Part shown: one piece after another, positions 14,457 to 32,006 of the stretch
Numbering within the stretch: position 1 is the first letter of the stretch
Layout of the letters: each line of letters opens with the position of its first letter
Assembly: GCF_001590835.1 (NCBI RefSeq)
Contig: NZ_LTAQ01000006.1
Coordinates: forward strand, 52,004 to 116,003
Length of the DNA stretch: 64,000 nucleotides
Direction: 5' to 3'
Origin: Bacillus gaemokensis
GTDB taxonomy: Bacteria > Bacillota > Bacilli > Bacillales > Bacillaceae_G
The notes under the pieces: generated by a model
The model's database searches: none
The model's input: only the letters and a program-made list of their open reading frames with translations
Told to the model about the DNA's origin: nothing
Program-made: the position numbers and the translations under genes

Positions 14457-14534
14457 CATTTCTTACTTTAAGTATAATTGGTGGTAAGCCTCGCAACTAT
14501 CGAATGAGGTGACGTGAGGATTACAGTGTTGTAA
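14457..14534 (-). repeat. Cassette copy A: solitary Bce-like promoter, no ORF
   Basis: Minus-strand promoter of the dispersed cassette family. The inverted repeat TTACA-N4-TGTAA is at 14521-14534, GTCAC at 14509-14513, TCGATAGTT at 14495-14503 and TATACT at 14471-14476. All four distances equal those in copies B, C and D. Downstream it runs directly into the ugpB terminator; the small ORF is missing. Confidence 0.7.
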
Positions 14535-14565
14535 TGTATAGAATTTCTATTTGAAAAGTTTTTTT

Positions 14566-14598
14566 GTTAAGGGAAAGTTAAGAAACTGATTTCATAAT
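14566..14598 (+). promoter_or_regulatory. Promoter P1 with direct repeat, upstream of permease remnant and two-component system
   Basis: GTTAAGGGAAAGTTAAG (14566-14582) gives TTAAG repeats 11 bases apart, followed after 10 bases by the -10-like CATAAT (14593-14598). The same block with identical spacing occurs at 16918-16949. The pattern is that of an OmpR-type regulator site replacing the -35 box. Confidence 0.6.
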
Positions 14599-14661
14599 AG
14601 GGCTCATATATAGAACATCGGTAGAGAAGAAGGGAGGAACAATTGCGGAAAATAGATTAGT

Positions 14662-14796
14662 ATGACAATTCTGTATTCCCTTCCCGTTACATTACTAGTA
14701 TTTTTATTCTTCTTATTAATAGGAGTTGGTTTTGGAGTATTTCCAGCAAATAAAGCCTCGAAATTGCATCCGATTTAAGCGCTTAGATATGAATGA
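14662..14796 (+). pseudogene. C-terminal remnant of a MacB/FtsX-type ABC permease with nonsense codon
   Basis: The frame from 14662 encodes one membrane helix and then GVFPANKASKLHPI, stop, ALRYE, stop. Intact permeases of this family end in a form like GxYPAxKASKLxPIEALRYE, so the TAA at 14776-14778 stands where a GAA Glu codon is expected, and the frame continues correctly to the normal end. Only about 45 codons survive; the rest of the permease and any ATPase are gone. A short expressed peptide of 38 residues is possible but no good ribosome site precedes the ATG. Confidence 0.7.
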
Positions 14797-14807
14797 AATA
14801 TGATAAT

Positions 14808-14840
14808 AAGAAGCGATCGCATATTGCGGCCGCTTTCTTT
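14808..14840 (+). terminator. Hairpin after the permease remnant
   Basis: GC-rich dyad (14808-14820 with 14826-14839, imperfect at the centre) ending in CTTTCTTTT. It is probably the old terminator of the lost transporter operon. Confidence 0.55.
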
Positions 14841-14940
14841 TGCTATTATAAGAAGTAGTATAATGGATAGAAAAAGAAGTTAATAATTCCTTCACGGATT
14901 AAAGTTTCACTTTATGTTAAATGAAAGGTGAGAAAAGTAG

Positions 14941-15612
14941 ATGCGCTTATTAGTAGTGGAAGATCACGCTCCTTTGTTGGAGTCAATTGTACAGATTTTA
15001 TGCGATGAATTTGAAGTGGATACAGCGATAAATGGAGAAGATGGGTTATTTTTGGCATTGCAAAATATTTACGATGCAATTCTTCTTGATGTCATGATGC
15101 CAGGGATAGATGGTTTTGAAGTCATTCAAAGAATACGTGACGAAAAGATTGAAACTCCTGTCTTGTTTTTAACGGCTAAAGATTCTTTAGAGGATCGAGT
15201 AAAAGGATTAGATTTTGGAGGTGATGATTATCTAGTCAAGCCATTTCAAGCTCCGGAACTGAAAGCGAGAATTCGCGCTCTATTACGCAGAAGTGGTAGT
15301 TTAACAACAAAGCAGACAATCAGGTACCGAGGGATTGAGTTGTTTGGAAAAGACAAAGATATTCAAGTGGATGGTGAAACAATCAAATTAACGTTAAAGC
15401 AATATGAGCTTTTAGAATATCTGATTCAAAATAGCGGGAAAATTTTAACGCGTGAACAAATTTTTGATCGTGTTTGGGGATTTGATTCGGACACGACTGT
15501 AGCGATTGTTGAAGTATATGTGCATCATTTGAGGAAAAAATTAGAGCCATTTGGTTATCAGAAAGATATTCAAACCGTTCGCGGGATTGGATATATATTA
15601 AAAGAACAATGA
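14941..15612 (+). CDS. OmpR-family response regulator
   Basis: A 223-residue regulator: receiver domain (acidic VVEDH, phospho-acceptor Asp in AILLDVMMPG, Lys in LVKPF) and OmpR/PhoB winged helix (TLKQYELLEYLIQNSGKILTREQI, then VEVYVHHLRKKL). It is coupled to the next kinase gene. The direct-repeat promoters at 14566 and 16918 are its best candidate targets, giving autoregulation plus control of the secreted proteins downstream. It resembles the B. subtilis YkoG group, but I do not assign a name. Confidence 0.9.
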   Translation: MRLLVVEDHAPLLESIVQILCDEFEVDTAINGEDGLFLALQNIYDAILLDVMMPGIDGFEVIQRIRDEKIETPVLFLTAKDSLEDRVKGLDFGGDDYLVKPFQAPELKARIRALLRRSGSLTTKQTIRYRGIELFGKDKDIQVDGETIKLTLKQYELLEYLIQNSGKILTREQIFDRVWGFDSDTTVAIVEVYVHHLRKKLEPFGYQKDIQTVRGIGYILKEQ

Positions 15613-15623
15613 AGAGAGGAAGT

Positions 15624-16877
15624 ATGTTTCAAAAAACACGTATTCGTCTTACGATTTTAAATTCATTGGTGTTTATTATATTGATTGGAGTATTAGGGAG
15701 TATTATCTATGTCTATACGTATAATCGTATTTACAATGGTGTAGATACTTCTATAGAAATGTCCAAAGCAAAAGCGTTGAAAGACCCTAGAATGATTTCA
15801 AAAGAGTTTGCTTTCAATAAAGATATACGTATTGGAGATTCACGTATAACAGTGTTGATATGGAAAGGGAAAAAGGAATTCATAGGGATGAAGCCTAGGT
15901 TTCCAGAACCAAACTTTTATGAAGAAAACAAGTCTGAGTTATTTCCGAAAAAATTTGGGGATTTTGAAGATATTGAGATAAAAGGGAGAAGTTTTAGAAC
16001 ATTGGCATTTCAGGGCGATACTGAATTTGGAAAAGTGACGGTTCAATTTGTACGTGATACAACTGCTGAAAGAGATATGTTGCATACGTTATGGTTGATT
16101 CTTATAGTAGGTTGTAGCATAGGAAGCTTATGTGCAATTGGAATCGGATTTTTCTTAGCCGGAAAGGCCCTTGTACCCATTCGAAATTCTTGGGAGAAAC
16201 AGCAACAGTTTGTTTCTGATGCATCACATGAATTACGAACACCACTAGCTGTTATCCAATCGAAAACAGATGTATTGTTTCAGTCACCTTCCGCGACAAT
16301 AGAAGAAAAAGCAATTGATATATCTACAATTGCTAAAGAATGTAGAAGGTTGTCGAAGCTCGTTGCCAATCTATTATTATTAGCGCGTTCAGATTCGAAC
16401 CAAATTGAAATGGATAAAAAGGAGTTTGAATTAGACGAGTTATTGAAGGAAGTAGTAGATCCATATAAGGAAATTGCTGCATACCAAGAAAAAGAGATGA
16501 CAGTGAAAGTGGATTCTAAAATATCATTTATGGGGGATAGAGAAAGAATCCATCAAATGATTGTGATTTTATTAGATAATGCAATGAAATATACGAATGA
16601 GGGTGGAACGATCCAAATCAGCTGCACCCAAACAGGTACATCAACTATCATACAAGTAAAAGATGATGGAATAGGGATTAAGGAAGAAGATATTCCAAAA
16701 CTCTTTGACCGTTTTTATCAAGGGGATAAAGCAAGAACGAAATCAGAAGGAGCGGGATTAGGGCTTTCAATTGCTAGTTGGATTGTAGAAAAACATTATG
16801 GGAAAATAAAAGTAGAGAGTAAGTTTGGAAAAGGTACTTGTTTTGAAGTGATTTTTCCAAAAAATCAAAGAGTATAA
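15624..16877 (+). CDS. Sensor histidine kinase
   Basis: About 417 residues. Two membrane helices (near 12-32 and 155-180) enclose an extracellular domain of about 125 residues; then the H box SDASHELRTPLAVI, N box HQMIVILLDNAMKYT, G1 DDGIGI, F box and G2 GAGLGLSIASWI. I choose ATG 15624 because AGAGGAAG precedes it; ATG 15609, overlapping the regulator stop, lacks a ribosome site and would add five residues. The large sensor domain separates it from BceS-type kinases. Confidence 0.88.
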   Translation: MFQKTRIRLTILNSLVFIILIGVLGSIIYVYTYNRIYNGVDTSIEMSKAKALKDPRMISKEFAFNKDIRIGDSRITVLIWKGKKEFIGMKPRFPEPNFYEENKSELFPKKFGDFEDIEIKGRSFRTLAFQGDTEFGKVTVQFVRDTTAERDMLHTLWLILIVGCSIGSLCAIGIGFFLAGKALVPIRNSWEKQQQFVSDASHELRTPLAVIQSKTDVLFQSPSATIEEKAIDISTIAKECRRLSKLVANLLLLARSDSNQIEMDKKEFELDELLKEVVDPYKEIAAYQEKEMTVKVDSKISFMGDRERIHQMIVILLDNAMKYTNEGGTIQISCTQTGTSTIIQVKDDGIGIKEEDIPKLFDRFYQGDKARTKSEGAGLGLSIASWIVEKHYGKIKVESKFGKGTCFEVIFPKNQRV

Positions 16878-16885
16878 AGAAATTT

Positions 16886-16917
16886 AAGACGACCTTGTTT
16901 TTACAAGGTCGTCTTTT
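16886..16917 (+). terminator. Terminator of the two-component operon
   Basis: 13-bp perfect stem (16886-16898 with 16903-16915) and a T run. The T run directly adjoins the direct repeat of the next promoter. Confidence 0.85.
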
Positions 16918-16949
16918 TTAAGGGAAAGTTAAGAAATATTTTTCATAAT
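16918..16949 (+). promoter_or_regulatory. Promoter P2 with the same direct repeat as P1
   Basis: TTAAGGGAAAGTTAAG (16918-16933), then the -10-like CATAAT at 16944-16949, inside TTTCATAATAGG as in P1. It drives the secreted repeat protein and the C39-like protein. The 16917-17172 leader holds no other clear gene. Confidence 0.6.
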
Positions 16950-17172
16950 AGGATTTACACGGAATGAGAAGGGAAAAAGGAAGATAGAGTAATCCATTGA
17001 TATTCTTCTTAAGAACAGCTTAATTGTTATATTTCTAGTTGGTTAGCCTATTGAAATATATCTTTGATTAGGAATCGAATGGAGCATATCTTTTACGATA
17101 ATGTGGGAAAAATGGAAGAGCAAGTGTATGAGGAGAATTATAGTATGCGAAACATAAAGGAGGAGAGGGAAT

Positions 17173-17997
17173 TTGGAAAAGAAAAAGGTAGTGTCATTAT
17201 TTGTTATTGGAGTCATGAGTTTAAGTGTAATGGGAGGGGCGTCTGCTTCTACAACACCAAAAGGTAAAACGAACTTTGCTCAGCGCAGTAAAGAACAACT
17301 AAATAATGGAAAGATACATACTACACAGACAGAGGAAAAAGCACAAAAACTAGGAATTGAAACAGATGGAAAAGAGCAAATTACTTTAGAAAAGGAAATA
17401 CATGAAACAGAAGTTGATCAGGAAGCAAAGCAGCTAGGAATTCCTACTGAGGGCAAAGGTGTGGGAGTTCTTTCAGAAGAAATTTATGAAGCAAAAGTAA
17501 AACGAGAGGCAGCAAATTTAGGAATAGTGATAGATAATTCATCCATTGTTGATTTAATCAATCAAATTAATGCAATCAAAATAAATAATGAAGCAGATAA
17601 ACTTGAGGTTTCAACAGAAGGAAAAGAGATAGAAGAAATTGCCGAGGAGATTTATGGGACGAAGGTAAAGGAAGAAGCAGCAAATCTAGAGATTTCTCAA
17701 AAAGGGAAAGAGATAGAAGATTTGGCGCAAGAAGTATATGAGAAGAAAGTTCAGGAAGAGGCGAAAAGGTTTCATATTGATTTATATGGTAAAGATATTT
17801 ACCAGGTGCTAAGAGAAATAAATGAGCAAAAAGTGATACAAACGGCAGACGAGCTTGGAATAGATAGAACAAATACAAATATCGAGCAATTAGCAGAAAA
17901 GATAAAAAAGGAGCGGCCTGAAAAAGGAAAAGAGCTTGTCTTTTTACCTATGGTTCAAACGGAAGCGGATGCATTTTATTCTTATTTAACGAATTAA
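17173..17997 (+). CDS. Secreted helical-repeat protein, unknown function
   Basis: A 274-residue protein starting with TTG behind a strong AAGGAGGAGAGG. A signal peptide ends near GGASAS. The mature protein is built of about six repeats of 30-37 residues with the pattern E-A-x-x-L-G-I-x-T-x-G-K-x-I-x-x-L-x-x-E-I-Y-x-x-K-V-x-x-E-A, very rich in Glu and Lys and probably all helical. I do not recognise the family. It lies between a two-component system and a C39-like peptidase; the shared promoter type suggests that the system induces it. Confidence 0.75.
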   Translation: MEKKKVVSLFVIGVMSLSVMGGASASTTPKGKTNFAQRSKEQLNNGKIHTTQTEEKAQKLGIETDGKEQITLEKEIHETEVDQEAKQLGIPTEGKGVGVLSEEIYEAKVKREAANLGIVIDNSSIVDLINQINAIKINNEADKLEVSTEGKEIEEIAEEIYGTKVKEEAANLEISQKGKEIEDLAQEVYEKKVQEEAKRFHIDLYGKDIYQVLREINEQKVIQTADELGIDRTNTNIEQLAEKIKKERPEKGKELVFLPMVQTEADAFYSYLTN

Positions 17998-18018
17998 AAA
18001 GGGCGTGAAGATAGAAGA

Positions 18019-18843
18019 ATGATACGGAATAGGAATATATATATATGTATAGCTATATTGGGAATGCTTATTTGTTTGAGTATATATATGAAAAGTAGAG
18101 ACGTCATTCCTATTACTAAACATGTAGAAAAAGTAAAGAGTATCGTCTCCGATCAACTTGTTCAACAGAAAAGTGATAAAGAGCAACTTGCCATTCCGGT
18201 AGCACAAGGTCAAAAGCAAGGGGGGCCTATGAATATGGATAAGGAAAAAGTATTACTTCAAAATGTACCTTTTATCCAGCAGCGACCTGAGTTAGATAGG
18301 GGGTGTGAAGTAACTAGTCTAGCTATGATGTTACAGTACGCAGGTGCTTCCGTAGATAAGATGAAATTAGCTGATGAAATACCGAAAGTCGCCTTCTCAA
18401 ATGATGGTGTACGTGGTAATCCAAACGAAGGATTTGTAGGGAATATTTATACTTTCTCTGAATCAGGATACGGTGTGTATCACGAGCCACTTTTTCAGTT
18501 AGCGAATAAATATTTACTGAATCGAGCTGTTGACTTAACAGATGAAAATATAAATGAAATTTATAAAACGGTAAGAGAGGGCAAGCCGGTTGTGATGATT
18601 ACAAATGCCACATATGCCCCATTAGATGAAGATGAATTTAGTACATGGGAAACAGACACAGGCGATGTTTCTATTACGTACAATGAACATTGTGTTCTTC
18701 TTATTGGCTATGATAAGGACTCAGTTTATATCCATGATCCGCTTAGTGATACACCAGGTGTAAGTGTTCCGCGCGAAAACTTTGAACGGGCATGGGTGCA
18801 AATGGGGAGTCAAGCTATTAGTTATGTAAGAGATCCTAAATAA
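18019..18843 (+). CDS. Membrane-anchored C39-like (peptidase_C39_2) protein
   Basis: A 274-residue protein with an N-terminal membrane anchor (about 7-24) and an extracellular papain-like domain of the C39_2/YvpB type. The catalytic Cys is in DRGCEVTSLAMML, the His in YNEHCVLLIGYD and the following Asp/Asn in YIHDPLSD. Such domains cleave or bind peptides at the cell surface. It follows the repeat protein by 21 bases and is probably cotranscribed; the repeat protein might be its substrate or partner (inferred). Confidence 0.82.
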   Translation: MIRNRNIYICIAILGMLICLSIYMKSRDVIPITKHVEKVKSIVSDQLVQQKSDKEQLAIPVAQGQKQGGPMNMDKEKVLLQNVPFIQQRPELDRGCEVTSLAMMLQYAGASVDKMKLADEIPKVAFSNDGVRGNPNEGFVGNIYTFSESGYGVYHEPLFQLANKYLLNRAVDLTDENINEIYKTVREGKPVVMITNATYAPLDEDEFSTWETDTGDVSITYNEHCVLLIGYDKDSVYIHDPLSDTPGVSVPRENFERAWVQMGSQAISYVRDPK

Positions 18844-18912
18844 AATAGAAAGGAAATGGAATAGACGAGAGAGAAGTTCTATTACTTTAAACTATTTTAA
18901 AGGGGAAGAGAT

Positions 18913-19041
18913 ATGGAACTAGGTTTAAAAAGAGAAAGTGATGATATAGTACATTCACTTTTTCAGGAAAAAATAAGAGGAACTCAGCATATTTATTATA
19001 CTGAATTCCTCTTATTTTTGTTGAGTATACGAGAGAGATAA
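18913..19041 (+). CDS. Possible 42-residue ORF running through a terminator
   Basis: ATG at 18913 follows AGGGGAAGAG. The frame reads MELGLKRESDDIV and ends in FLLFLLSIRER, but its second half is the terminator hairpin 18972-19016 and the edge of cassette B. It may be a decayed gene or chance. Confidence 0.25.
   Translation: MELGLKRESDDIVHSLFQEKIRGTQHIYYTEFLLFLLSIRER
18972..19021 (+). terminator. Terminator after the C39-like gene
   Basis: 16-base arms with one mismatch (18972-18987 with 19001-19016) followed by TTTTG. Confidence 0.75.
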
Positions 19042-19115
19042 GGGATCAAAATAATGATGAAATCTTATCTCCTCTTATTGTCTTGTACGATTCGTAATGA
19101 ATATCCCTCGCTTCA

Positions 19116-19199
19116 TTATTTGTTCAACTCCATTGCAACTTGTTTTCCGTTTACGAAAACTTTTACCACAGCTACTACAACTTCCATCACTTTTTTCAT
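19116..19199 (-). CDS. 27-residue peptide of cassette B
   Basis: Encodes MKKVMEVVVAVVKVFVNG then KQVAMELNK. AAGGAGAGATGAG sits at ideal distance before the ATG. Compared with copy C, nearly all differences are third-base synonymous changes (one Lys/Glu change), which argues for a translated peptide. There is no signal peptide; the first half is an alternating Val-rich strand, the second half NGKQVAMELNK is polar. I do not recognise a family. Confidence 0.65.
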   Translation of the reverse strand: MKKVMEVVVAVVKVFVNGKQVAMELNK

Positions 19200-19239
19200 T
19201 TCTCATCTCTCCTTGTTTTTTGTTTCATTTCTTACCTTT

Positions 19240-19303
19240 AGTATAAGGGAGAGCATATAGAGTAACTATCGAATTGGGTGACAGGTAGATTACAGTCTTG
19301 TAA
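19240..19303 (-). promoter_or_regulatory. Bce-like regulated promoter of cassette B
   Basis: TATACT at the -10 position, no good -35 (TAGTTA), and upstream blocks GTCAC and TTACA-N4-TGTAA at fixed distances. The inverted repeat starts 50 bases beyond the -10 in all four copies. This is the layout of an activator-dependent promoter. Confidence 0.6.
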
Positions 19304-19456
19304 GAATAAACTATGCGTAGAGAATTTTTTTAAAAAATGACATAAGATAAGTAAGGGTGACAATCGTATTTATTCAAAAATATTGTATTAGTACAAAAGA
19401 ATAAGTAAGATAGATGTCGCATGTAATATAGAAGAAATAAGGGAGAAAATAAAGGG

Positions 19457-21064
19457 ATGAGGAAAAGAAAAAAGTTGTTAAGTTTATGGAAAACGATTAC
19501 ATTGCTAGTGTGTACTGTTGTCGCGTTTTCTTTACTTGTAACAGATATTTTAATCAGTCATAATGTCGAGCGTACGACAGAAGAAGGCCAAGCAGAAAAA
19601 GCAAAAACGATTGCACATATTGTGGCAAGTTCACCACTTGTAATAGATGCTTTAACAGGAAGAAAAGATGCATATGAAATTCAAACATATGCAAATCGAG
19701 TATTAAAAAATACAGATGTTCAATTTATCGTGGTCATGGATATGAATGGTATTCGAAAATCTCACCCAAATCCTCAGAAAATTGGTCATCATTTTGTAGG
19801 GGGAGATGAAGGGATAGCCTTGAAGGGAAAAGAACATGTATCAATGGCTGAAGGAACTTTAGGGATCTCTATGCGAGTGTTTGTACCTATCTTTTCTGAA
19901 GACAGAGAACAGATAGGGGTTGTTGCTGTTGGCATTTCAGCTGATAATGTGCATGAGAAGATAAAAGAGAGCAGACACATTATTTATATCGGCGTTGGTG
20001 TAGGGATCTTAGTTGGGATTATAGGTGCTATTTTATTAGCTAGACATATTAAGAAAATCTTATTTGGTCTCGAACCTAGTGAAATCGCAAAGATTTTAGA
20101 AGAACGGAATACGATGCTACAATCTGTCAAAGAGGGAGTTATTGCTGTTGATAAAGAGGCGAGGGTTACTTTAATCAATAACGAAGCAAAACGGCTATTT
20201 AAGAAAAGTGGAATTGAGGAAAATTTTATTGGTAAAGATGTTGAGAAATATATGCCTAACTCATGTATAAAAGAAGTGTTACAAACCGGGGAAGCGCAAT
20301 TACATGAAGAACAGAATCTTTACGGAGTTACAATTGTTACGAATCGAGTTCCTTTATATGTTAAAGGAGAAATCGTTGGCGTAATTGCGACGTTTCGTGA
20401 TAAAACAGAAATTAGGAAATTAGCAGAGCAGTTAACGGGTATTCGACTTTATGCAGAAGCGCTCAGGGCACAATCTCACGAATTTATGAATAAAATGCAT
20501 GTTGTATTAGGTTTGACACATATGAAACAATATGAAGAATTAGAGAAATATGTTAGTAGTATGGTGTCAGAGCATCAATATGAAATTGGTGGGGTAATGC
20601 GGAAAATCAAAAATCCTGTGTTTGCAGGATTTTTGCTGGGCAAACTTAGTTATGCAAGGGAAAAGAATATACAGCTTATCGTCAGTGAAGATTCTTATTT
20701 GCCAGAGTCGTATGATGAAAGTATTATTCATGAACTTATTACAATTGTCGGTAATTTAATCAATAATGCATTAGATGCAGTGATGAATTGTGAATATAAG
20801 CGAGTACATGTTTCTATTCAATATCAGGATAAATTGATTATCATAGTTAAAGATACAGGATATGGAATCCAGAAAGAAGAAATGGACAAAGTATTTGTTA
20901 AAGGGTATTCCACAAAAGGAGAAAATCGAGGGTATGGCTTATATCTTATAAATGATAGTCTAAAGCGAATAAATGGAAACATCCATGTCGATTCACTATT
21001 AGGAAAGGGAACAACGATAACAATTGAAATACCATACAAAAGTAGGGATGAGATAGGAACATGA
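19457..21064 (+). CDS. CitA/DcuS-family sensor kinase for malate or citrate
   Basis: A 535-residue kinase: membrane helix (about 12-32), extracellular single-Cache sensor (about 35-170, with KSHPNPQKIGHHFVGGDEG and ISMRVFVPIF), second helix (about 175-195), PAS domain, H in RAQSHEFMNKMHV, N box NLINNALDAVMN and G2 RGYGLYLIND. The Cache domain of this family binds C4-dicarboxylates or citrate. The gene overlaps its regulator by four bases, and a 2-hydroxycarboxylate symporter and malic enzyme follow. This is the B. subtilis malK-malR-maeN order, so malate is the likeliest ligand. Confidence 0.9.
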   Translation: MRKRKKLLSLWKTITLLVCTVVAFSLLVTDILISHNVERTTEEGQAEKAKTIAHIVASSPLVIDALTGRKDAYEIQTYANRVLKNTDVQFIVVMDMNGIRKSHPNPQKIGHHFVGGDEGIALKGKEHVSMAEGTLGISMRVFVPIFSEDREQIGVVAVGISADNVHEKIKESRHIIYIGVGVGILVGIIGAILLARHIKKILFGLEPSEIAKILEERNTMLQSVKEGVIAVDKEARVTLINNEAKRLFKKSGIEENFIGKDVEKYMPNSCIKEVLQTGEAQLHEEQNLYGVTIVTNRVPLYVKGEIVGVIATFRDKTEIRKLAEQLTGIRLYAEALRAQSHEFMNKMHVVLGLTHMKQYEELEKYVSSMVSEHQYEIGGVMRKIKNPVFAGFLLGKLSYAREKNIQLIVSEDSYLPESYDESIIHELITIVGNLINNALDAVMNCEYKRVHVSIQYQDKLIIIVKDTGYGIQKEEMDKVFVKGYSTKGENRGYGLYLINDSLKRINGNIHVDSLLGKGTTITIEIPYKSRDEIGT

Positions 21065-21768
21065 TCAAAGTTTTGATTGTAGAAGATGATCCGATGGTAG
21101 CAATGTTAAATAAGCATTATTTAGAGCAAGTAGGAGGATTTGAACTTGTTCATACAGCTAATTCCGTGAAAGAAGCAGTAGAGATACTAAAGAAATCGTC
21201 TATAGATTTCATATTGCTTGATATTTTTATGCCTGGTGATACAGGATTTGAATTGTTACTGCATATTCGAAATCAAGAAAAAGAAATTGATGTTATGATG
21301 ATTTCAGCTGTGCATGATATGGGGAGTATAAAAAAAGCGTTACAATATGGAGTTGTTGATTATTTAATTAAACCATTTACATTTGAAAGGTTTAAAGAGG
21401 CACTAACTGCGTATCGAGAAAAGTTTATATTTATGAAAGAACAGCAAAAAATTAGCCAATCTGAATTAGATACGTTAATTTTACAAAAAGAAAAAGTGGA
21501 AATTTATGTGGATAAAGAACTTCCAAAAGGATTAACAAAGCAAACATTACAGTTGATTTGGAAGCAAATAGAATCACTTCATGGACAAGCATTTACAACG
21601 GATGAAATGGCGCAATTAGTTGGAATATCAAGGGTTTCTATTCGAAAGTACGTAATGTTTTTAACTGAAATTGGGGTTTTAGAAGATGAAATGGTTTATC
21701 AACATGTCGGAAGACCGGTAAGTAAACTACGATGCATTGACTATAATAAAATAAATCTGTACGTATAA
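21061..21768 (+). CDS. CitT/MalR-family response regulator
   Basis: A 235-residue regulator with receiver domain (VEDDP, Asp in FILLDIFMPGD, Lys in YLIKPF) and a C-terminal helix-turn-helix (MAQLVGISRVSIRKYVMFL). It is cotranslated with the kinase, and probably activates the symporter gene 120 bases downstream. It is a paralogue of the regulator at 931. Confidence 0.9.
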   Translation: MIKVLIVEDDPMVAMLNKHYLEQVGGFELVHTANSVKEAVEILKKSSIDFILLDIFMPGDTGFELLLHIRNQEKEIDVMMISAVHDMGSIKKALQYGVVDYLIKPFTFERFKEALTAYREKFIFMKEQQKISQSELDTLILQKEKVEIYVDKELPKGLTKQTLQLIWKQIESLHGQAFTTDEMAQLVGISRVSIRKYVMFLTEIGVLEDEMVYQHVGRPVSKLRCIDYNKINLYV

Positions 21769-21799
21769 GCGGCTTATATAAGTCGCTTATACTTTTTTT
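21763..21799 (+). terminator. Terminator after the response regulator
   Basis: 14-base arms (21763-21776 with 21779-21792, one G-U pair) that include the stop codon, followed by seven T. Confidence 0.8.
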
Positions 21800-21844
21800 A
21801 GTTACAAAATCAGTTACAAAACTTACAAAAACTATTTTTACTAT

Positions 21845-21858
21845 TGAAAGCGTTTTAA
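21845..21858 (+). promoter_or_regulatory. cre-like site before the symporter
   Basis: TGAAAGCGTTTTAA, one mismatch from TGWAANCGNTNWCA, 33 bases before the start codon. It points to catabolite repression of the symporter-malic enzyme unit. Confidence 0.6.
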
Positions 21859-23237: not shown

Positions 23238-23248
23238 TTTATCATCAT

Positions 23249-24552: not shown

Positions 24553-24555
24553 AAA

Positions 24556-24828
24556 AAGGGAGATAAGGCATCAAAATAATGATGAAACCTTATCTCTTTT
24601 TATGTGATGATACAATTCATAATGAATTTTCCTCGTTTCATTATTTATTCAACTCCATCGCAACTTGCTTTCCGTTTACGAAAACCTCTACCACTGCAAC
24701 TACAACTTCCATCACTTTTTTCATATCTCATCTCTCCTTGTTTGTTGTTTCATTTCTTACTTTTAGTATAAGGGAGAGATAGGGATACAACTATCGAAGC
24801 ACGTGACATAGAAATTACATTGTCGTAA
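24556..24828 (-). repeat. Mini-gene cassette copy C
   Basis: Complete minus-strand unit: inverted repeat (TTACG-N4-TGTAA on the minus strand) at 24815-24828, GTCAC at 24803-24807, TCGATAGTT at 24789-24797, TATACT at 24765-24770, the ORF, and a terminator GAGATAAGG/CCTTATCTC at 24560-24596. It fills the gap between malic enzyme and the DUF4871 gene. Confidence 0.8.
24641..24724 (-). CDS. 27-residue peptide of cassette C
   Basis: Encodes MKKVMEVVVAVVEVFVNG then KQVAMELNK, preceded by AAGGAGAGATGAG. It differs from the copy B peptide at one residue (Glu for Lys at 13) although the DNA differs at several third positions. That pattern indicates selection on the peptide. Confidence 0.65.
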   Translation of the reverse strand: MKKVMEVVVAVVEVFVNGKQVAMELNK

Positions 24829-24836
24829 GGAATGAA

Positions 24837-25376: not shown

Positions 25377-25451
25377 TTTGCCACACTCCTATTTTTCGTT
25401 GTTAGTGTAAGTGTATTTGCTAGAAGACGGGACAATTCCTTTTAAATGATA

Positions 25452-25487
25452 AAAAGAGGTCGTAAGTTTAGTACGACCTCTTTTGAC
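25452..25487 (-). terminator. Terminator of the EamA transporter gene
   Basis: 13-bp stem (25452-25464 with 25472-25484) with an A run on the plus strand that becomes a T run for the minus transcript. Confidence 0.8.
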
Positions 25488-25490
25488 ATT

Positions 25491-26423
25491 TCATATTTGT
25501 TCAGTGGTAAATGTAGGCTTTGTTTCTTTTTCAGGCATTGTTAAGAAAATAACAGCAAGAATGATACATACCCCGCCTAATAGTTGATAGGCGCCAAAAG
25601 ATTCATTTAACCAAGTGATGGAAACGACTGCTGCTACAAGTGGTTCAATGCTAGATAAAATACTTGTTTCTGTTGCTGATAAATATTTTAGGCTCCCGAT
25701 ATAAAGAAGGAAAGAGAGCGTCCCACTTATAATAATAAGAATGAGCATAGAGAATGTTTGGAATGTAAAAGTTTGCGAAAGATGATTCCACTGGAAAGAG
25801 CGATTGCAAATAAGAAGTGCAATGCCTCCAATTAACATCCCCCAGCCGATAATGAGAGTCGTCCCCCATTTTTTTATAAGGGAAGCAGGATGAAGCGTAT
25901 AAAAGGCAAAGCCAATTGCGGTTAGCAATCCAAATATAATCGCTTCTTTAGATAAGACGATATTTTCAATTGAACCATTCGTAATGATGAAGTATGTTCC
26001 TGTTAGTGCAGCTGTAATTGCTAATATTTGCATGGCAGCAGGGAACTTTTTATGTTCAAATGCAACGTAAATAGTAATCAGGACAGGGCCGAGAAATTGA
26101 AAGAGTGTTGCGGTAACCGCGTTACTAATATGAACGGTTTCAATAAAAGCGTATTGTGCGCCAAGCATGCCAAGAATCGAGAAAATTATAAGTTGTACAA
26201 AATGAAGCGGATGTTTCCAAATCCGGAAGATGTTTTGTTTTTTTACGAGTAAGAAACATAAAATAAAGATCCCAGCAAGCAATAGGCGAATCGTTAAAAA
26301 GTCGATAGATGATACCACAGTATTTTGAAAAAGCCACTGAATCATAGGTCCTGATAATCCCCATAAAGTAGCACCTGTAATAATCATTATAAGTCCAAGG
26401 CGTCTGTTATTTTGCATACTCAT
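25491..26423 (-). CDS. EamA/DMT-family transporter
   Basis: A 310-residue membrane protein with two EamA domains and about ten helices (GLIMIITGATLWGLSGP at the start; GTLSFLLYIGSLKYLSATETSILSSIEPLVA in the second half). Such proteins export amino acids or metabolites. I start at ATG 26423 after GAAAGGAG; the long upstream frame extends into the divergent gene and is not coding. It is divergent from a MocR regulator, an arrangement like B. subtilis ycxC-ycxD. Confidence 0.85.
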   Translation of the reverse strand: MSMQNNRRLGLIMIITGATLWGLSGPMIQWLFQNTVVSSIDFLTIRLLLAGIFILCFLLVKKQNIFRIWKHPLHFVQLIIFSILGMLGAQYAFIETVHISNAVTATLFQFLGPVLITIYVAFEHKKFPAAMQILAITAALTGTYFIITNGSIENIVLSKEAIIFGLLTAIGFAFYTLHPASLIKKWGTTLIIGWGMLIGGIALLICNRSFQWNHLSQTFTFQTFSMLILIIISGTLSFLLYIGSLKYLSATETSILSSIEPLVAAVVSITWLNESFGAYQLLGGVCIILAVIFLTMPEKETKPTFTTEQI

Positions 26424-26486
26424 GATGCTCCTTTCATGGATTGATTTTTTTAGATTTACATGATAAAAGGAATTATATATAACTTC

Positions 26487-26506
26487 TGGTACTGTAAAAA
26501 GTATCA
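26487..26506. promoter_or_regulatory. Candidate MocR operator
   Basis: TGGTAC and GTATCA, inverted with one mismatch, lie in the short divergent region between the transporter and MocR genes. Position fits a regulator site, but the evidence is only the dyad. Confidence 0.3.
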
Positions 26507-26536
26507 AGTATATCTTTTTTAAGGGGGTCAGATTCT

Positions 26537-27931
26537 GTGTTAGAATTAACACCAAGTTTGAATCCAAAGAAAAAAAAGCCATTGTATGTACAGCTATATG
26601 AGTATATAAAAACGGAAATAAAAATGGGGAAAATCGTTCCTTTGACAAAGCTCCCTGCAAAAAGAAAGTTAGCGATGTATTTGCAAGTAAGTAAAAATAC
26701 AGTAGAAGCAGCATATGAACAACTTCTTGCCGAAGGGTATATTGAATCAGTTTCGCGTAAGGGCTATTTTGTATGTGAAATGGAACAAATGATACATGCA
26801 AAAGACAAAGAAGAATTTGTAAAAGAAGTAGCGTTTAGGGAACGGAAATATAAATATGATTTTACGCAAACTGGTGTGGATGCTGATTCTTTTCCATTCA
26901 CTGTATATAGAAAAATTACAAATGAGGTATGGCAACTAGAAAATAAAGAATTACTTTTTCTGGGACATCCTCAAGGTGAATTGAATTTGCGTGAAGAAAT
27001 AGCCAAATATTTATATGAATCTAGAGGGGTACGTTGTTCTGCTAGTCAGATTATACTAGGAGCGGGAACACAATTTTTAATAAGGATATTGTTTCAGTTA
27101 TTAAAAGGAAGTCATTATGCAGTAGAAAATCCAGGGTATCACCGAAAATTAGTTACGTTTGAGCAAGGTGAGCAGAATGTTCAGATGTTGTCACTGGATG
27201 ACGAGGGAATTTGTATTTCAGATTTAGAAAATAGTAATGCAAATGTTGTATTTGTTACACCATCCCATCAATTTCCATGCGGAATGATTATGCCAATCAC
27301 AAGGCGGATGCAACTCTTGCAGTGGGCAGAGCAAGAGCAAGGAAGATATATTATTGAGGATGACTACGATAGTGAATTTCGTTATTCAGGAAAGCCGATA
27401 CCAGCATTACAAGGGCTTGATTCAAAGGGGAAAGTCATTTATATGGGTACATTTTCAAAGGCATTACTGCCATCATTACGAATGAGCTATATGGTTTTGC
27501 CAAAAACGTTAATCGAATTGTATCAAACACAATATTTGTTCTATACACAAAGTGTTTCAAGAATGGATCAAGAAATCATTAGAAGGTTTTTAAACGAAGG
27601 ACACTGGGAAAGACATATTCATAAAATGCGGGTTGTGTATCGGAAGAAGAGAGATATTCTTGTTTCGGCAATTGAAAAATATTTTTCTAATAGGGTGGAC
27701 GTGATAGGAGAAGATTCTGGTTTACATATTTTATTAAAGGTCGATAACGGAATGGTAGAAGAGGAATTAATTGAAAGAGCGGCTGAAAGTAGTATAAAAA
27801 TATATCCAGTTTCAATGTATTACAAAGAGGGAAGCATTCCAAAAAATACGATTTTACTTGGATTTGCTATTTTATTAGAGGAAGAGATTGAAGATGCGAT
27901 TCGATTATTATATAAGGCATGGTTTTTGTAA
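26537..27931 (+). CDS. MocR-family transcriptional regulator (GntR HTH plus aminotransferase fold)
   Basis: A 464-residue fusion: GntR winged helix (about 10-75, with LPAKRKLAMYLQVSKNTVEAAY) and a fold type I aminotransferase domain (about 110-460). PLP-site residues are seen in TPSHQFPCGMIMP, IIEDDYDSEFRY and the Schiff-base Lys in GTFSKALLPSLRM. Such regulators bind PLP with an amino compound as effector. It starts with GTG after AAGGGGG. Likely target: the divergent EamA gene. Confidence 0.9.
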   Translation: MLELTPSLNPKKKKPLYVQLYEYIKTEIKMGKIVPLTKLPAKRKLAMYLQVSKNTVEAAYEQLLAEGYIESVSRKGYFVCEMEQMIHAKDKEEFVKEVAFRERKYKYDFTQTGVDADSFPFTVYRKITNEVWQLENKELLFLGHPQGELNLREEIAKYLYESRGVRCSASQIILGAGTQFLIRILFQLLKGSHYAVENPGYHRKLVTFEQGEQNVQMLSLDDEGICISDLENSNANVVFVTPSHQFPCGMIMPITRRMQLLQWAEQEQGRYIIEDDYDSEFRYSGKPIPALQGLDSKGKVIYMGTFSKALLPSLRMSYMVLPKTLIELYQTQYLFYTQSVSRMDQEIIRRFLNEGHWERHIHKMRVVYRKKRDILVSAIEKYFSNRVDVIGEDSGLHILLKVDNGMVEEELIERAAESSIKIYPVSMYYKEGSIPKNTILLGFAILLEEEIEDAIRLLYKAWFL

Positions 27932-27948
27932 AAGTAGGAGGGAATTAG

Positions 27949-28281
27949 GTGCAACAAGTTATTGAAAGAGTACGTGGGAATAAAAGAATACAGAATATCA
28001 TTATTATTGCTGGATTCATGAGCATATTGCTAGGACCGGAGGAGTTAAATATATATACAGGTGTTTTGTACAGTATCATATTGGGGGTTATTGTGTATAT
28101 TTCAAGTTATTTATACCTAGCCCGATCATGGAAAGGTATTGTCTATTCAGCAGGTGCAGTATTCATTATCGCTGCTCTTTACGGAATTTTTATAATGTTT
28201 TTCCCGGAAGTGCATTATATAGGAGTCATAATTATTGTTGGAGTAGTGGGCTTTATATTTACATATTTTGTTGGAAAATGA
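27949..28281 (+). CDS. Small four-helix membrane protein, unknown
   Basis: A 110-residue protein starting with GTG behind TAGGAGGG, 17 bases after the MocR gene, so probably cotranscribed. Four hydrophobic segments are visible (IIIIAGFMSILLG, GVLYSIILGVIVYISSYLYL, GIVYSAGAVFIIAALYGIF, HYIGVIIIVGVVGFIFTYFV). I do not recognise a family. Confidence 0.7.
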   Translation: MQQVIERVRGNKRIQNIIIIAGFMSILLGPEELNIYTGVLYSIILGVIVYISSYLYLARSWKGIVYSAGAVFIIAALYGIFIMFFPEVHYIGVIIIVGVVGFIFTYFVGK

Positions 28282-28312
28282 AAAACATCCTCATGTATGT
28301 GAGGATGTTTTT
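28281..28312. terminator. Bidirectional terminator
   Basis: Perfect 13-bp stem (28281-28293 with 28300-28312) between convergent genes, with A and T runs at both ends. Confidence 0.85.
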
Positions 28313-28313
28313 A

Positions 28314-28826
28314 TTACTTTTCTTCATCTAAGAATAAAACCATATGCTCTTCGTCCCAATATTGACCGTTATATTTTAATGAACGCTCTTGAACACCGAA
28401 TGTTTTAAATCCTAATGATTCATAAAGTTTCTTTGCACCGTCGTTTCCGACAACAACATCAAGCATAACTTGTTCTACTTCTAACTTTTTTGCAAGTTCA
28501 ATACATGCCTTGATAAGGGATTTTCCTGCTCCAAGTCCACGGGCTTTTGGAGATACATATACTGAACCAATCTTTGCTTTATGTCCTTGTTTTACGTATG
28601 GTTTCGTTTCCAGTGTTGCGACCCCAATAAGCTTCTCATCTTTAAACGCACCAAGTGTGTAGTTTTCGTCTTGTGCCAATTTTTGTGCCTTATATTCGAT
28701 TGGACACTCTTTATTAATAATATCTTCATAAGAAGAACTAAAAGCTTCAGGATTTTGTTTTAATCCTTCTACGCGAAGTTCTAAATAAATTTCTGCTTCT
28801 TGCTTTGTTAATACATGGATTTCCAA
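28314..28826 (-). CDS. GNAT-family N-acetyltransferase
   Basis: A 170-residue acetyl-CoA-dependent transferase. The acetyl-CoA loop is VSPKARGLGAGKSLI and the last motif VGNDGAKKLYESLGFK. I place the start at TTG 28826 (protein MEIHVLTKQEAE), since GGAGGG precedes it well and the paralogue at 32007 begins at the same residue; a GTG nine bases earlier is too close to the ribosome site. The acceptor substrate is unknown. It is about 70 percent identical to the gene at 32007. Confidence 0.85.
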   Translation of the reverse strand: MEIHVLTKQEAEIYLELRVEGLKQNPEAFSSSYEDIINKECPIEYKAQKLAQDENYTLGAFKDEKLIGVATLETKPYVKQGHKAKIGSVYVSPKARGLGAGKSLIKACIELAKKLEVEQVMLDVVVGNDGAKKLYESLGFKTFGVQERSLKYNGQYWDEEHMVLFLDEEK

Positions 28827-28968
28827 GTATATCACCCTCCAAATCGTTGCCAGTTGTAATTACATTTTATATTGAAATAAGAATAATTTCAAAAGGTCAG
28901 CTTGTATTTAGTAGATTTTATTAGTTTTTACGTTCTTTTTGCATCGATATTCGTTATTTAAATAATAG

Positions 28969-28995
28969 CACCAGCAGTTTTTGGAACCACTGGTG
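28969..28995 (-). terminator. Weak hairpin after the kinase gene
   Basis: CACCAG/CTGGTG arms (28969-28974 with 28990-28995) downstream of the minus-strand kinase; no good T run. Confidence 0.3.
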
Positions 28996-29009
28996 ATGTA
29001 AGCTCTATA

Positions 29010-30386
29010 TTATTTGATTGGTAATTCAATCATAAATTCTGTTCCAATCCCTAATGCACTTTGTACCCGAATGGAGCCACTATGTAGCTCCACAATCTCT
29101 TTTGCAACAGCGAGTCCAATTCCTTTGCCACCTGTGGCTCTAGTCCGTGATTTATCGACTCGATAAAAGCGATCGAAAATATGGGGAATATCTTCTTTAG
29201 GAATACCTTCTCCTTCATCTTGCACACATATAGTAAAAGTATTCTCATTTGTAAGTACATACATTGTAATAATGGAATGCTCACGAGAATGTTGATAGGC
29301 GTTGTGTAGTATATTTAACATTACTTGTTCCATACGGCGTTCATCCATACAAACCTCTAGATCCTCTGCATATGGGAACTCAATTTTCATTTGTTTTTTA
29401 GCAAGTGTTGTTTTTGTTTTTTCAATCATTCGTTCTAGAAACGGATGAAGTAGCATTTTCTGCTTTTTAATAATAAATTGATGTTGTTCTAACTGAGCAA
29501 GATCAAATAAATCTTGCACGAGCTCTGTTATACTATCAGTTTCATCTTCGATAATTTGTAAATATTCTTCGCGCTCTTCTTTTGATAAAGAATCTCTTTT
29601 TGCAACTTTCGCGTAGCCCTTCATATAAGTAAGGGGGGTGAGAAGTTCATGAGCAACACTAGCTAGAAATTCATTTCGTTCTTTTTTCATATAGGTTAAT
29701 TCACTTGATAATTCCTCAATGGTTGTCGCTAAACTACCAAGCTCATCATTACGTTTAATACCTAATTTAATCGGTTTATTTAGCTTTAACATTTTTTCTG
29801 TTGCTCGTTTCATTTTAATGAGTGGATCGGTAATGACACGAGAAAAGATGAAGACAGAAATAGTAGTTAAAAGAAGGGTTAATATACCGATAATAATGAA
29901 TTGATGTGTTAAACGAAGAATCATTTTTTCTAAGAAGGCGGTATCTAAAAACATATGGACATATCCAGTGACCTGCGCATTAATTATGATTGGACTTGCT
30001 GTTGAGATGAATTTCGATGTCTTCCAATTTTTTTCAATCATCGTTCCATTTCTTGAAATGGATTGTATTTTGTAAGCAAGTTGTTTTTTCATATCTTTTG
30101 TTACAGTATCTGAAGCAGCTAAAATTTGTCCATTGGTGTCTGTTATGACTAATGTTGTATCTGAAGTGGAGTGAGATTCCGCTGTAATAGCGCGTTCAAA
30201 GGCGCGTGGACCATAGCGATTTTCAATACGGTCACGATATCGATTTCCTTTCTCTAAAAGGGCGTTTGTTTCTTCATCGATACGCATTTTAGCAAGACTT
30301 GTATGAAAAGATACAAAGGCTATTGTTTCAATACATAAAGCTAATATTAAAAAGTATGTACCGATTTTGAGGGAAAGTTTGTTCAT
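29010..30386 (-). CDS. Sensor histidine kinase with HAMP domain
   Basis: A 458-residue kinase: membrane helices near 8-28 and 160-185 enclosing an extracellular domain of about 130 residues, HAMP linker (about 185-235), H box LASVAHELLTPLTYMKGY, N box EQVMLNILHNAYQHS, G1 DEGEGI and G2 GGKGIGLAVAKEIV. It is the second gene of a unit with the response regulator, 66 bases downstream. The signal is unknown. Confidence 0.9.
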   Translation of the reverse strand: MNKLSLKIGTYFLILALCIETIAFVSFHTSLAKMRIDEETNALLEKGNRYRDRIENRYGPRAFERAITAESHSTSDTTLVITDTNGQILAASDTVTKDMKKQLAYKIQSISRNGTMIEKNWKTSKFISTASPIIINAQVTGYVHMFLDTAFLEKMILRLTHQFIIIGILTLLLTTISVFIFSRVITDPLIKMKRATEKMLKLNKPIKLGIKRNDELGSLATTIEELSSELTYMKKERNEFLASVAHELLTPLTYMKGYAKVAKRDSLSKEEREEYLQIIEDETDSITELVQDLFDLAQLEQHQFIIKKQKMLLHPFLERMIEKTKTTLAKKQMKIEFPYAEDLEVCMDERRMEQVMLNILHNAYQHSREHSIITMYVLTNENTFTICVQDEGEGIPKEDIPHIFDRFYRVDKSRTRATGGKGIGLAVAKEIVELHSGSIRVQSALGIGTEFMIELPIK

Positions 30387-30415
30387 TTTTTCACCATACC
30401 TTTATTTCATATAAA

Positions 30416-30446
30416 TGGTCAGTGGTATGAATTTCCCCACTGACCA
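30416..30446 (-). other. Hairpin between regulator and kinase genes
   Basis: TGGTCAGTGG and CCACTGACCA pair perfectly (30416-30425 with 30437-30446) within the 66-base gap. It could reduce kinase expression relative to the regulator. Confidence 0.5.
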
Positions 30447-30452
30447 AAATTA

Positions 30453-31124
30453 TCATTCACTTTTCCATTTATAACCTACTTTGTAGATGGTTTCTAAGTA
30501 TTGTTCGATAGGAAAGTCTTGCTTTCGTAGTTTATCTCGAATATTACGGATATGTGAATCAACAGTACGATATTCGATATCGGTTTGATATCCCCATATT
30601 TTTTCAATTAAGTCATCACGACTATAAGCGCGGTTCGTATTTTGTAAAAACAGTCCTAGTAATGAAAACTCGATAGGTGTAAGAGGAATTTTTTCATTGT
30701 AAACAGTAACAGTATGTTTTGTCTTATCCCATTCAATACCATTGAAGCTTACAAATCCATCCTTTTTCGTTCGGCGCAATACAGCTTCAATTCGTGCAAC
30801 GAGTACTTGTTCATCAAAAGGTTTTGTAATATAGTCATCAGCACCTATAGTAAGCCCCTTTACCATATCGTAGTTTTGATTACGAGCTGTTAACATAATG
30901 ATTGGGACATTACATATTTGACGTATTTGATAACACGTATCCCATCCATCCATGTTTGGCATCATGACATCTAACAAAATGATATCAAAGTCTTTTTGCT
31001 GAATTAGTTCAAGAGCTTCGATGCCAGAAGTGGCTTTCATACAAAAATAGCCACGTGGGCTTAAAAATAAATCTAATAATCGCAACATACGTTCTTCATC
31101 ATCTACTAATAAAATTTTTATCAT
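30453..31124 (-). CDS. OmpR-family response regulator
   Basis: A 223-residue regulator: receiver (VDDEERML, Asp in IILLDVMMPN, Lys in YITKPF) and OmpR winged helix (PLTPIEFSLLGLFLQNTNRAYSRDDLIEKIWG, then VDSHIRNIRDKL). I use ATG 31124 because the upstream GTG at 31136 overlaps the ribosome site GAGGTG. Partner of the kinase at 29010. Target genes are not evident; the paralogous acetyltransferases flank the pair. Confidence 0.9.
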   Translation of the reverse strand: MIKILLVDDEERMLRLLDLFLSPRGYFCMKATSGIEALELIQQKDFDIILLDVMMPNMDGWDTCYQIRQICNVPIIMLTARNQNYDMVKGLTIGADDYITKPFDEQVLVARIEAVLRRTKKDGFVSFNGIEWDKTKHTVTVYNEKIPLTPIEFSLLGLFLQNTNRAYSRDDLIEKIWGYQTDIEYRTVDSHIRNIRDKLRKQDFPIEQYLETIYKVGYKWKSE

Positions 31125-31324
31125 ATTTTTGTGCACCTCAAAACATTCATTCTACTTTGTATAGTGTACATGAAAATGATAAAAAACTCTGTTTATGTGA
31201 TTGAATTGCAGAGGATTTTTTCTACCAAAGCAATTGACATAAAAAATGCACTACTTTTGCACAACTCTCTTTTATAATAGAGAACGTAGCGACACAAAAT
31301 ACCCTATGTTGCGACATAACGTCA

Positions 31325-31347
31325 TGTCATTTTATTATAAAATGACA
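31325..31347. repeat. Palindrome in the upstream region of the regulator
   Basis: TGTCATTTT-ATTAT-AAAATGACA, a perfect 9-bp dyad. It might be an operator or an RNA hairpin. The stretch 31137-31300 otherwise shows no gene. Confidence 0.4.
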
Positions 31348-31365
31348 ATTCCATTCTATTGTGTA

Positions 31366-31436
31366 TGTGAGATAGTGAGGATTTTCGTATTCACCTCGCA
31401 TCGGATAAGGAAAAATTCCTATCTCACACTTTTTTT
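31366..31436 (+). ncRNA. Candidate small structured RNA or attenuator
   Basis: A 10-bp stem TGTGAGATAG/CTATCTCACA (31366-31375 with 31419-31428) encloses a 43-nt region with a smaller GAGG/CCTC stem and is followed by a run of seven T. It lies 24 bases before the GTG of the small membrane peptide gene, so it could be a leader attenuator or an independent RNA. No known family is recognised. Confidence 0.35.
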
Positions 31437-31459
31437 ATTTCTATAAAGGGGACATACAC

Positions 31460-31582
31460 GTGAGTAAAAAAGAAGAGTATTCACAAAAAGAAAAGCAAGA
31501 GCGTAATGCTGTTGTGATGTGCATTGCAGTATCTATGCTAATTATTGTAGCGTGTACAAATAAAATTTTCGGGATTCTATAA
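31460..31582 (+). CDS. 40-residue single-helix membrane peptide
   Basis: GTG start behind AAAGGGGA, then a charged N-terminus (MSKKEEYSQKEKQER) and one hydrophobic helix (VVMCIAVSMLIIVACTN) ending KIFGIL. A strong terminator follows eight bases later. Good translation signals and an isolated transcription unit support a real small gene; function unknown. Confidence 0.6.
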   Translation: MSKKEEYSQKEKQERNAVVMCIAVSMLIIVACTNKIFGIL

Positions 31583-31591
31583 TAGATAATA

Positions 31592-31632
31592 AAAACTCGT
31601 TGTTTCCTTTTGAGAAACAACGAGTTTTTTTG
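31592..31632 (+). terminator. Terminator after the 40-residue gene
   Basis: 15-bp perfect stem (31592-31606 with 31614-31628) and a T run. Confidence 0.85.
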
Positions 31633-31664
31633 TTAGATAAGGGATCAAAAAATGATAGAAGCGT

Positions 31665-31754
31665 TTATACAATAAACCAAGGGAGAACAGCTAAGCCGGA
31701 TGTTACAATTACTGTACCGCAAATTAAAAAGATAAGATGTTTGTTCTGTTTCAT
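31665..31754 (-). CDS. 29-residue membrane peptide, second ORF of cassette D
   Basis: ATG 31754 follows GAAGGAGACTGT. The peptide begins MKQNKHLIFLICGTVIVTSG and ends LAVLPWFIV, a single membrane helix. It begins 17 bases after the stop of the 24-residue ORF and has no counterpart in copies B or C. Confidence 0.5.
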   Translation of the reverse strand: MKQNKHLIFLICGTVIVTSGLAVLPWFIV

Positions 31755-31771
31755 GTTACAGTCTCCTTCAA

Positions 31772-31846
31772 CTATTGATTTAATTTCATTGCTACTGATT
31801 TTCCATTTATTATTACTTCTACGATTGCTCCCATTATTTCTATCAT
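31772..31846 (-). pseudogene. Frameshifted cassette peptide of copy D
   Basis: Encodes MIEIMGAIVEVIINGKSVAM then KLNQ, clearly aligned to residues 4-27 of the B and C peptides. The normal ATG (31854) is followed by Lys-Lys-stop because one G is missing after the A run. Translation could restart at ATG 31846, but that is 17 bases from the ribosome site. Either a broken copy or one with a shorter product. Confidence 0.45.
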
Positions 31847-32006
31847 TTTTTCATCACTTATCTCTCCTTGTTGTCATTTCGTATTTTCAGTATAGCGAAG
31901 AAGCAGGAATAGAACGATCGATAAAGGTGACATGAATATTACATTGTTGTAAGAAAAAAGCACCTTCATTATGAAAGGGTGCTTTAAAAAAATCGATGCT
32001 GAATTA

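Follow-up and report, generated by a model that had tools for sequence, protein, structure and literature searches.

Promoter copies and peptide genes in the window

The stretch of DNA analysed here (the window) comprises 64,000 nucleotides of Bacillus gaemokensis (contig NZ_LTAQ01000006.1, positions 52,004 to 116,003) and carries four dispersed copies of one promoter architecture, three of them followed by a gene for a very short peptide. All evidence from the host genome is drawn from this 64-kb window. The copies lie on the minus strand within 17.5 kb (Table 1) and share the layout TTACR-N4-TGTAAT-N6-GTCAC-N5-TCGATMGTT-N18-TATACT. Counted by eye from the first T of TTACR, the offsets are the same in all four copies, with TGTAAT at 9, GTCAC at 21, TCGATMGTT at 31 and the -10 box TATACT at 58. 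A further block, TAMGAAATGA, was seen by eye just past the -10 box in every copy. The blocks are kept, while the spacers between them diverge among the copies. For the 31-base core TGTAATNNNNNNGTCACNNNNNTCGATMGTT, four exact matches were found in the window as compared with 0.00 expected from 100 shuffles, and allowing up to three mismatches gave no core match in the window beyond the four copies.

An earlier reading of this DNA made without database searches (the sequence-only reading) had placed four minus-strand sites at these positions, and the core counts bear this out. The strict spacing that it described holds in so far as the offsets agree across the copies, whereas the distances it gave have no single common origin. 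The repeat TTACA-N4-TGTAA, which it assigned to every copy, is present in copies 1, 2 and 4, copy 3 having TTACG instead, and the block that it took to be identical throughout reads TCGATCGTT in copy 4. The copy 3 promoter begins 8 bases past the stop codon of a DUF4871 gene.

Table 1. Features of the four copies. Matrix scores refer to the bceAB-type promoter matrix described in the next section; shuffle counts refer to duplex energies.
Feature	Coordinates	Strand	Score or basis
Copy 1 promoter: TTACA-N4-TGTAAT, GTCAC, TCGATAGTT, TATACT	14471..14534	-	matrix score 22.8
Copy 2 promoter: four blocks and TATACT	19240..19303	-	matrix score 30.9
Copy 3 promoter: four blocks, first arm TTACG, and TATACT	24765..24828	-	matrix score 26.1
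Copy 4 promoter: four blocks, with TCGATCGTT, and TATACT	31889..31952	-	matrix score 32.9
Copy 2 peptide, 27 residues, MKKVMEVVVAVVKVFVNGKQVAMELNK, with AAGGAGAG upstream	19116..19199	-	open reading frame
Copy 3 peptide, 27 residues, MKKVMEVVVAVVEVFVNGKQVAMELNK	24641..24724	-	open reading frame
Copy 4 peptide, 24 residues, MIEIMGAIVEVIINGKSVAMKLNQ	31772..31846	-	open reading frame
Copy 4 second frame, 29 residues, hydrophobic, GGAGA upstream	31665..31754	-	open reading frame
Hairpin terminator directly after copy 1 promoter, 22-bp perfect stem	14401..14448	-	scan
Hairpin terminator after copy 2	18972..19016	-	scan
Copy 3 local hairpin	24555-24601	-	repeat search and by eye
Hairpin terminator after copy 4	31591..31629	-	scan
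Copy 2 3'-end segment complementary to ribosome-binding/start region	19031..19063	-	0/300 shuffles
Copy 3 3'-end segment complementary to ribosome-binding/start region; 3' side of the local hairpin	24555..24591	-	0/300 shuffles
Copy 4 3' arm, complementary to 31838-31863, 26 nt, 92%	31635..31660	-	0/300 shuffles

Open reading frames (ORFs) of 24-27 residues had been proposed for three copies and were recovered in copies 2-4. The peptides of copies 2 and 3 differ at one residue, and their codons by about six synonymous changes and one nonsynonymous change (proportions of synonymous and nonsynonymous differences, pS and pN, of 0.37 and 0.02). To judge from this pattern, the peptide looks translated, with purifying selection between the two copies. 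In copy 4, a 3-codon ORF begins behind the ribosome site and its stop codon overlaps the start of the 24-residue ORF, an arrangement that would suit re-initiation. No ORF follows the copy 1 promoter, and when the window was searched in all six frames with a profile, only the three known peptides were returned. Terminators had been reported for two copies, a count that did not hold, a hairpin being found after each of the four. That of copy 1 is terminator-like on both strands and is common with a solute-binding-protein gene on the other strand.

The consensus of the peptide family, relatives included, is roughly MKKxxEhhhAhhEVhhNGKxVAxxLN. The first half of the peptide is hydrophobic and mildly amphipathic, most members having glutamates at a distance of seven residues from each other; an NG, DG or EG turn and a more polar end follow. 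The best 19-residue hydropathy in eight members is 1.09-1.75, values that fall short of, or just reach, those of a transmembrane segment. No convincing match was obtained in NCBIfam (two members queried), in Pfam at E<=5, in PHROGs, where one of seven members matched at E 0.27, or among PDB sequences, where the best E value was 0.26.

The promoter type and the peptide family in other genomes

BceR-type response regulators, whose relatives include GraR, VirR and PsdR/ApsR, answer bacitracin, lantibiotics and related peptide antibiotics by way of an intramembrane-sensing kinase and a BceAB transporter. The sequence-only reading had assigned the inverted repeat to regulators of this type. BceB homologues were found by protein search at 24 places in 12 of 13 genomes, at least two of the places (L151 and L155) being pieces of one gene. 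Within 1.5 kb upstream, the inverted repeat TNACA-N4-TGTNA was present with at most one mismatch at 15 of the 24, as compared with 0 of 24 in an opposite-strand control. A TCGATA-like block (at least 4 of 6 bases) lies exactly at offset 31 in eight of these 15, no other offset between 26 and 59 exceeding three, and a TATACT-like box (at least 5 of 6) lies at 58 or 59 in seven. In two of these promoters, one from G209 and one from G160, TCGATAGTT occurs without any change. In G285, TCTATGG is present both in a peptide cassette and at one bceB-type site, and the two blocks look as if they had drifted together.

A matrix was trained only on these 15 bceAB-type promoters, which were found through BceB homology in other genomes and are independent of the cassettes. 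Applied to the window, it ranks the four sites first to fourth, from 32.9 for copy 4 through copies 2 and 3 to 22.8 for copy 1, and the fifth site scores 8.7. The best site in 20 random windows had a maximum score of 20.6 and a mean of 10.2. This ranking, together with the position of the blocks at the same offsets, supports the assignment to BceR-type regulation.

The genome sets used in the scans (397, 348, 299 and 199 genomes) overlap, and the samples are not independent. The four-block pattern gave 20 matches in 18 of 199 genomes and none in a reversed control; one locus at a contig end (L168) was unreadable and was dropped. By gene assignments made by eye from translations, 15 of the 19 readable loci precede bceAB-type genes and two precede peptides of the window family, the others being followed by a 46-residue ORF (L171) and by other short ORFs, respectively. 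This search of other genomes, which the sequence-only reading had suggested, is in line with its assignment. With the -10 box included, the architecture was found at 12 places in 11 of 299 genomes, again with none in the reversed control. Downstream of these 12 lie three peptide cassettes, a complete bceRS-bceAB locus (L124 in G081; FtsX permease, response regulator and kinase by Pfam, the kinase having by eye two membrane segments with a very short loop between them), genes for a PAP2 phosphatase (PF01569), a transglycosylase, an NlpC/P60 hydrolase and a CAAX-type protease, two 42-residue hydrophobic ORFs (L118 and L119) and two other loci. The products at L113 and L115 are presumably an SdpC-like protein and a nucleotidyltransferase.

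A looser pattern gave 52 matches in six carrier genomes versus four in the reversed control, two of the 52 being the same palindromic place in G285. At the 15 inspected of the 30 returned loci, genes for BceAB, a transglycosylase, a DUF418 protein, an HlyD-type protein and an uncharacterised lipoprotein (PF17294) and a 23-residue hydrophobic ORF were found downstream, and two loci (L192 and L197) look like chance. Tiny hydrophobic ORFs under the same promoter type comprise those of 42 residues at L118 and L119, 30 residues at L161 and L162, where they directly precede bceA, 46 residues at L171 and 23 residues at L207; by eye, all are unlike the window peptide.

Compared with the BceRS-BceAB modules of Firmicutes, the window copies have the same TNACA-N4-TGTNA repeat upstream of a sigma-A-like -10 box (copies 1, 2 and 4, and copy 3 with TTACG), and the second repeat and the TCGATAGTT block stand at the offsets seen in many bceAB-type promoters. 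In contrast, the targets in the window are lone tiny-peptide genes and not transporters, and the half-sites are TGTAAT/GTCAC, whereas TGTAAG/TGAAAG is common among the four-block matches elsewhere. Inverted repeats similar in form to those of the window are described in two papers, one giving the Bce-type sites of L. paracasei as AnnTTACnAnnnnGTnAG (PMC10858260) and the other reporting binding of BceR and VirR to inverted repeats (PMC3128592).

A scan of 397 genomes of the order for the core matched seven at up to two mismatches, as compared with ten matches of the reversed control; the scan as a whole therefore shows no excess. Only the one-mismatch match in G070 was taken further, and the peptide was found there. 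At three mismatches, six of ten genomes matched, which was taken as chance. The exact core is absent from a genome-contig collection, in which the best malic enzymes are 72-73% identical to that of the window and the window's species group is apparently not represented.

A profile of the window peptides and the G070 relative found eight places in 8 of 348 genomes of the order (E<=0.01). A wider profile added two places in a single genome out of those eight (19 genomes of the family scanned, E<=0.05) and three in a class scan of 348 genomes (E<=0.01), which brings the relatives outside the window to 13. Eight of them have the four-block promoter, its first base 97-124 bases before the matched start, with bceAB-type matrix scores of 14.9-33.2, and occur in six genomes besides that of the window. 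Free-standing peptide genes of 24-35 residues under this promoter are accordingly present in at least seven genomes, the window included. Three cassettes occur in G285, two of them 8 kb apart; hence multi-copy dispersal is not peculiar to the window. Four of the five promoter-less relatives lie near a gene that we take to be prfC, and the fifth (L104/L111) precedes, by eye, a likely transglycosylase gene.

The loci L107-L110, from four genomes, form a second peptide branch (for example MKDALRLTLTVVEVMINGKKFVYELN) near a prfC-like gene and without a BceR-type promoter; three of these four carry a TTGTAGGGGAGTGATG leader. The protein encoded behind the peptide in G209 (L106, 10068-10655) is similar by eye to the PF17294 lipoprotein (L208) encoded behind a BceR-type site in G070. 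The G070 relative adjoins what is presumably an HssRS/HrtBA-like operon, and control by HssR was considered and dropped, no such neighbours being seen at the other cassettes.

Complementarity between translation start regions and transcript 3' ends

The transcripts predicted for copies 2, 3 and 4 can fold so that the region from the ribosome site up to and including the first codons is base-paired to a segment close to the 3' end. The duplex energy is below that of all 300 dinucleotide shuffles in each copy, with z-scores of -4.6, -4.7 and -5.2, respectively. By eye in the alignment, the copy 4 stem has an A-U pair at a position where copies 2 and 3 have G-C, with a one-base difference in the length of either arm; pairing was seemingly kept while the reading frame changed. 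This predicted RNA complementarity is new relative to the sequence-only reading. Among type I toxin mRNAs, hok and aapA are examples in which the 5' and 3' ends pair over a long distance (PMC6733600). The window copies resemble these in that a 3'-end segment of the mRNA is predicted to pair with the ribosome site; no antitoxin RNA was found for them, and the pairing is not general in the relatives.

At three other loci (L179, L180 and L181), a terminator loop UCUCCUCA is complementary to the ribosome site UGAGGAGA. As an anti-ribosome-site element this loop was rejected, the duplex being at chance (143, 267 and 54 of 300 shuffles).

Interpretation, rival explanations and neighbouring genes

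The four elements are probably promoters activated by a BceR-type response regulator and driving tiny peptides in three copies, a reading to which we give a probability of roughly 0.78. Regulator binding and induction are here inferred from the sequence comparisons. A BceR-type regulator would bind TTACR-N4-TGTAAT and the adjoining repeats 11 bases apart, and sigma-A polymerase would be recruited at the TCGATMGTT/TATACT core. Copies 2-4 would then express the conserved hydrophobic, mildly amphipathic peptide of 24-27 residues, and copy 1, a promoter without a peptide, may be a remnant or the source of a very short RNA. Given the features of the peptide and the further tiny hydrophobic ORFs under promoters of this type, it most likely serves the Bce response at the membrane, as an accessory or feedback factor. 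In the lineage of the window, the finished mRNA may in addition hold back its own translation, its 3' end pairing with the ribosome site.

Several observations weigh against this interpretation. The inverted repeat TNACA-N4-TGTNA by itself has five matches in the window versus 2.28 expected, and 7 of 100 shuffles reach five; two of the five lie outside the cassettes, and copy 3 with its TTACG is absent among them. With the repeat alone near chance, it is the spaced set of blocks that exceeds chance. No motif was found at 9 of the 24 BceB-matching places, and 7 of the 15 motif-bearing ones have no good TCGATA block. Five of the 13 peptide relatives score below 0 on the matrix and have no such promoter, so that the peptide can be separated from the regulon. 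Three two-component pairs lie near the cassettes, none of which looks BceRS-like, judged only by the size of their kinases (422, 458 and 535 residues), and in copy 4 the ribosome site is far from the start of the 24-residue ORF. As for the RNA pairing, 11 of the 13 relatives have a duplex no better, or hardly better, than chance (the exceptions are L102, 5/300, and L104, 20/300; L100 gave 27/300), the whole-RNA fold z-scores of copies 2-4 are modest (-2.0 to -2.8), a local hairpin competes with the long-range pairing in copy 3, and the three coding copies are paralogues. The pairing is thus a lineage feature at best. Finally, the direct repeats 11 bases apart can be written TGTNAY-N5-TGTNAY, which is like the WalR box.

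This last likeness is the starting point for an assignment of the promoters to the WalR (YycF) cell-wall regulon, whose box is TGTWAH-N5-TGTWAH. NlpC/P60-PcsB hydrolases are typical WalR-type targets, and one architecture match (G211) precedes a gene for an NlpC/P60 hydrolase with a PcsB coiled-coil domain. However, TGTNAN repeats spaced 11 bases are as far as the agreement goes, since the second half-site is (T/C)GTCAC in all four copies and has C where the box wants A or T. In their inverted TTACA arm, TCGATAGTT block and -10 spacing the copies agree with promoters of the bceAB type, and 15 of the 19 readable four-block matches lie before bceAB-type genes; we regard control by WalR as quite improbable. 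Boxes of LexA, Spo0A, PhoP, Fnr and PlcR showed no apparent fit. Still less credible is the proposal that the cassettes are short mobile repeats, such as the bcr elements of the B. cereus group, with incidental promoter-like blocks. The dispersal of the copies here and in G285 would suit mobility, but the blocks stay where spacers diverge and are the same in bceAB-type promoters, and copies 2 and 3 are under purifying selection for the peptide. Moreover, the window has no Rfam match at the gathering score, plasmids gave no cassette match by similarity, and viral contigs contain no exact core.

Two further explanations concern the function of the cassettes. They might be type I toxin-like genes, in which a stress-induced membrane peptide is encoded by a full-length mRNA that hides its ribosome site until processed. 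Small multi-copy hydrophobic peptides would fit this, as would the pairing in the three coding copies, the change on both sides of the copy 4 stem at one pair and its 26-nt arms. An inverted repeat in paralogous copies can nevertheless homogenise by itself, the pairing is near chance in most relatives with only modest whole-RNA z-scores, and no antisense RNA promoter stands out in the cassette region (63 promoter-like sites versus 72.5 in shuffles); we consider this explanation unlikely. The peptides could instead act as free-standing partners of a transporter of the BceAB type, in the way that VraH partners VraDE in S. aureus VraDEH. VraH is a small hydrophobic transmembrane protein of a Bce-type response that forms a complex with the transporter (PMC5786555). 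Other tiny hydrophobic ORFs behind promoters of this type, including those just before bceA, point the same way. On the other side, no transporter gene lies directly behind copies 2-4 or is linked to the window peptide, which by its hydropathy is borderline and not a clear transmembrane segment. VraH is the nearest precedent in action, with no claim of membership, and a partnership of this kind is a possible but not a probable reading.

Under BceR-type control, the tiny peptides are probably an overlooked part of peptide-antibiotic defence. The usual account of a Bce-type system is a loop made up of sensor, regulator and transporter; in the present case, free-standing genes that ordinary gene calling would pass over as too short carry this promoter code. 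Should the predicted induction occur, a set of targets has been overlooked in antimicrobial-peptide-stress transcriptomes of these bacteria, and resistance or tolerance may be tuned by unstudied peptides. A doubtful extension is that the new peptide family forms a separate multi-copy output arm of Bce-type signalling, in which each mRNA, in the lineage of the window, would limit its own translation by 3'-end capture, so that the membrane-active peptide would be made in a brief burst that ends by itself and serves dormancy, membrane repair or sensor feedback. By title and abstract, searches of an open-access library listed no paper on such peptides. Regulator sites of B. cereus were reportedly treated by de Been et al. 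in 2008.

Between copy 1 and the two-component genes at 14941-16877, a plus-strand frame at 14640-14800 reads MTILYSLPVTLLVFLFFLLIGVGFGVFPANKASKLHPI, a stop and ALRYE, and by eye is like the broken C-terminal end of an FtsX/MacB-type permease. Two GNAT acetyltransferase genes on the minus strand (28314-28835 and 32007-32513), closely similar by eye, flank the two-component pair at 29010-31136, and copy 4 lies just after the second of them. The plus-strand gene at 17173-17997 is predicted to encode a protein of imperfect repeats, roughly EAxxLGIxxxGKEIEELAEEIYxxKVKEEA.

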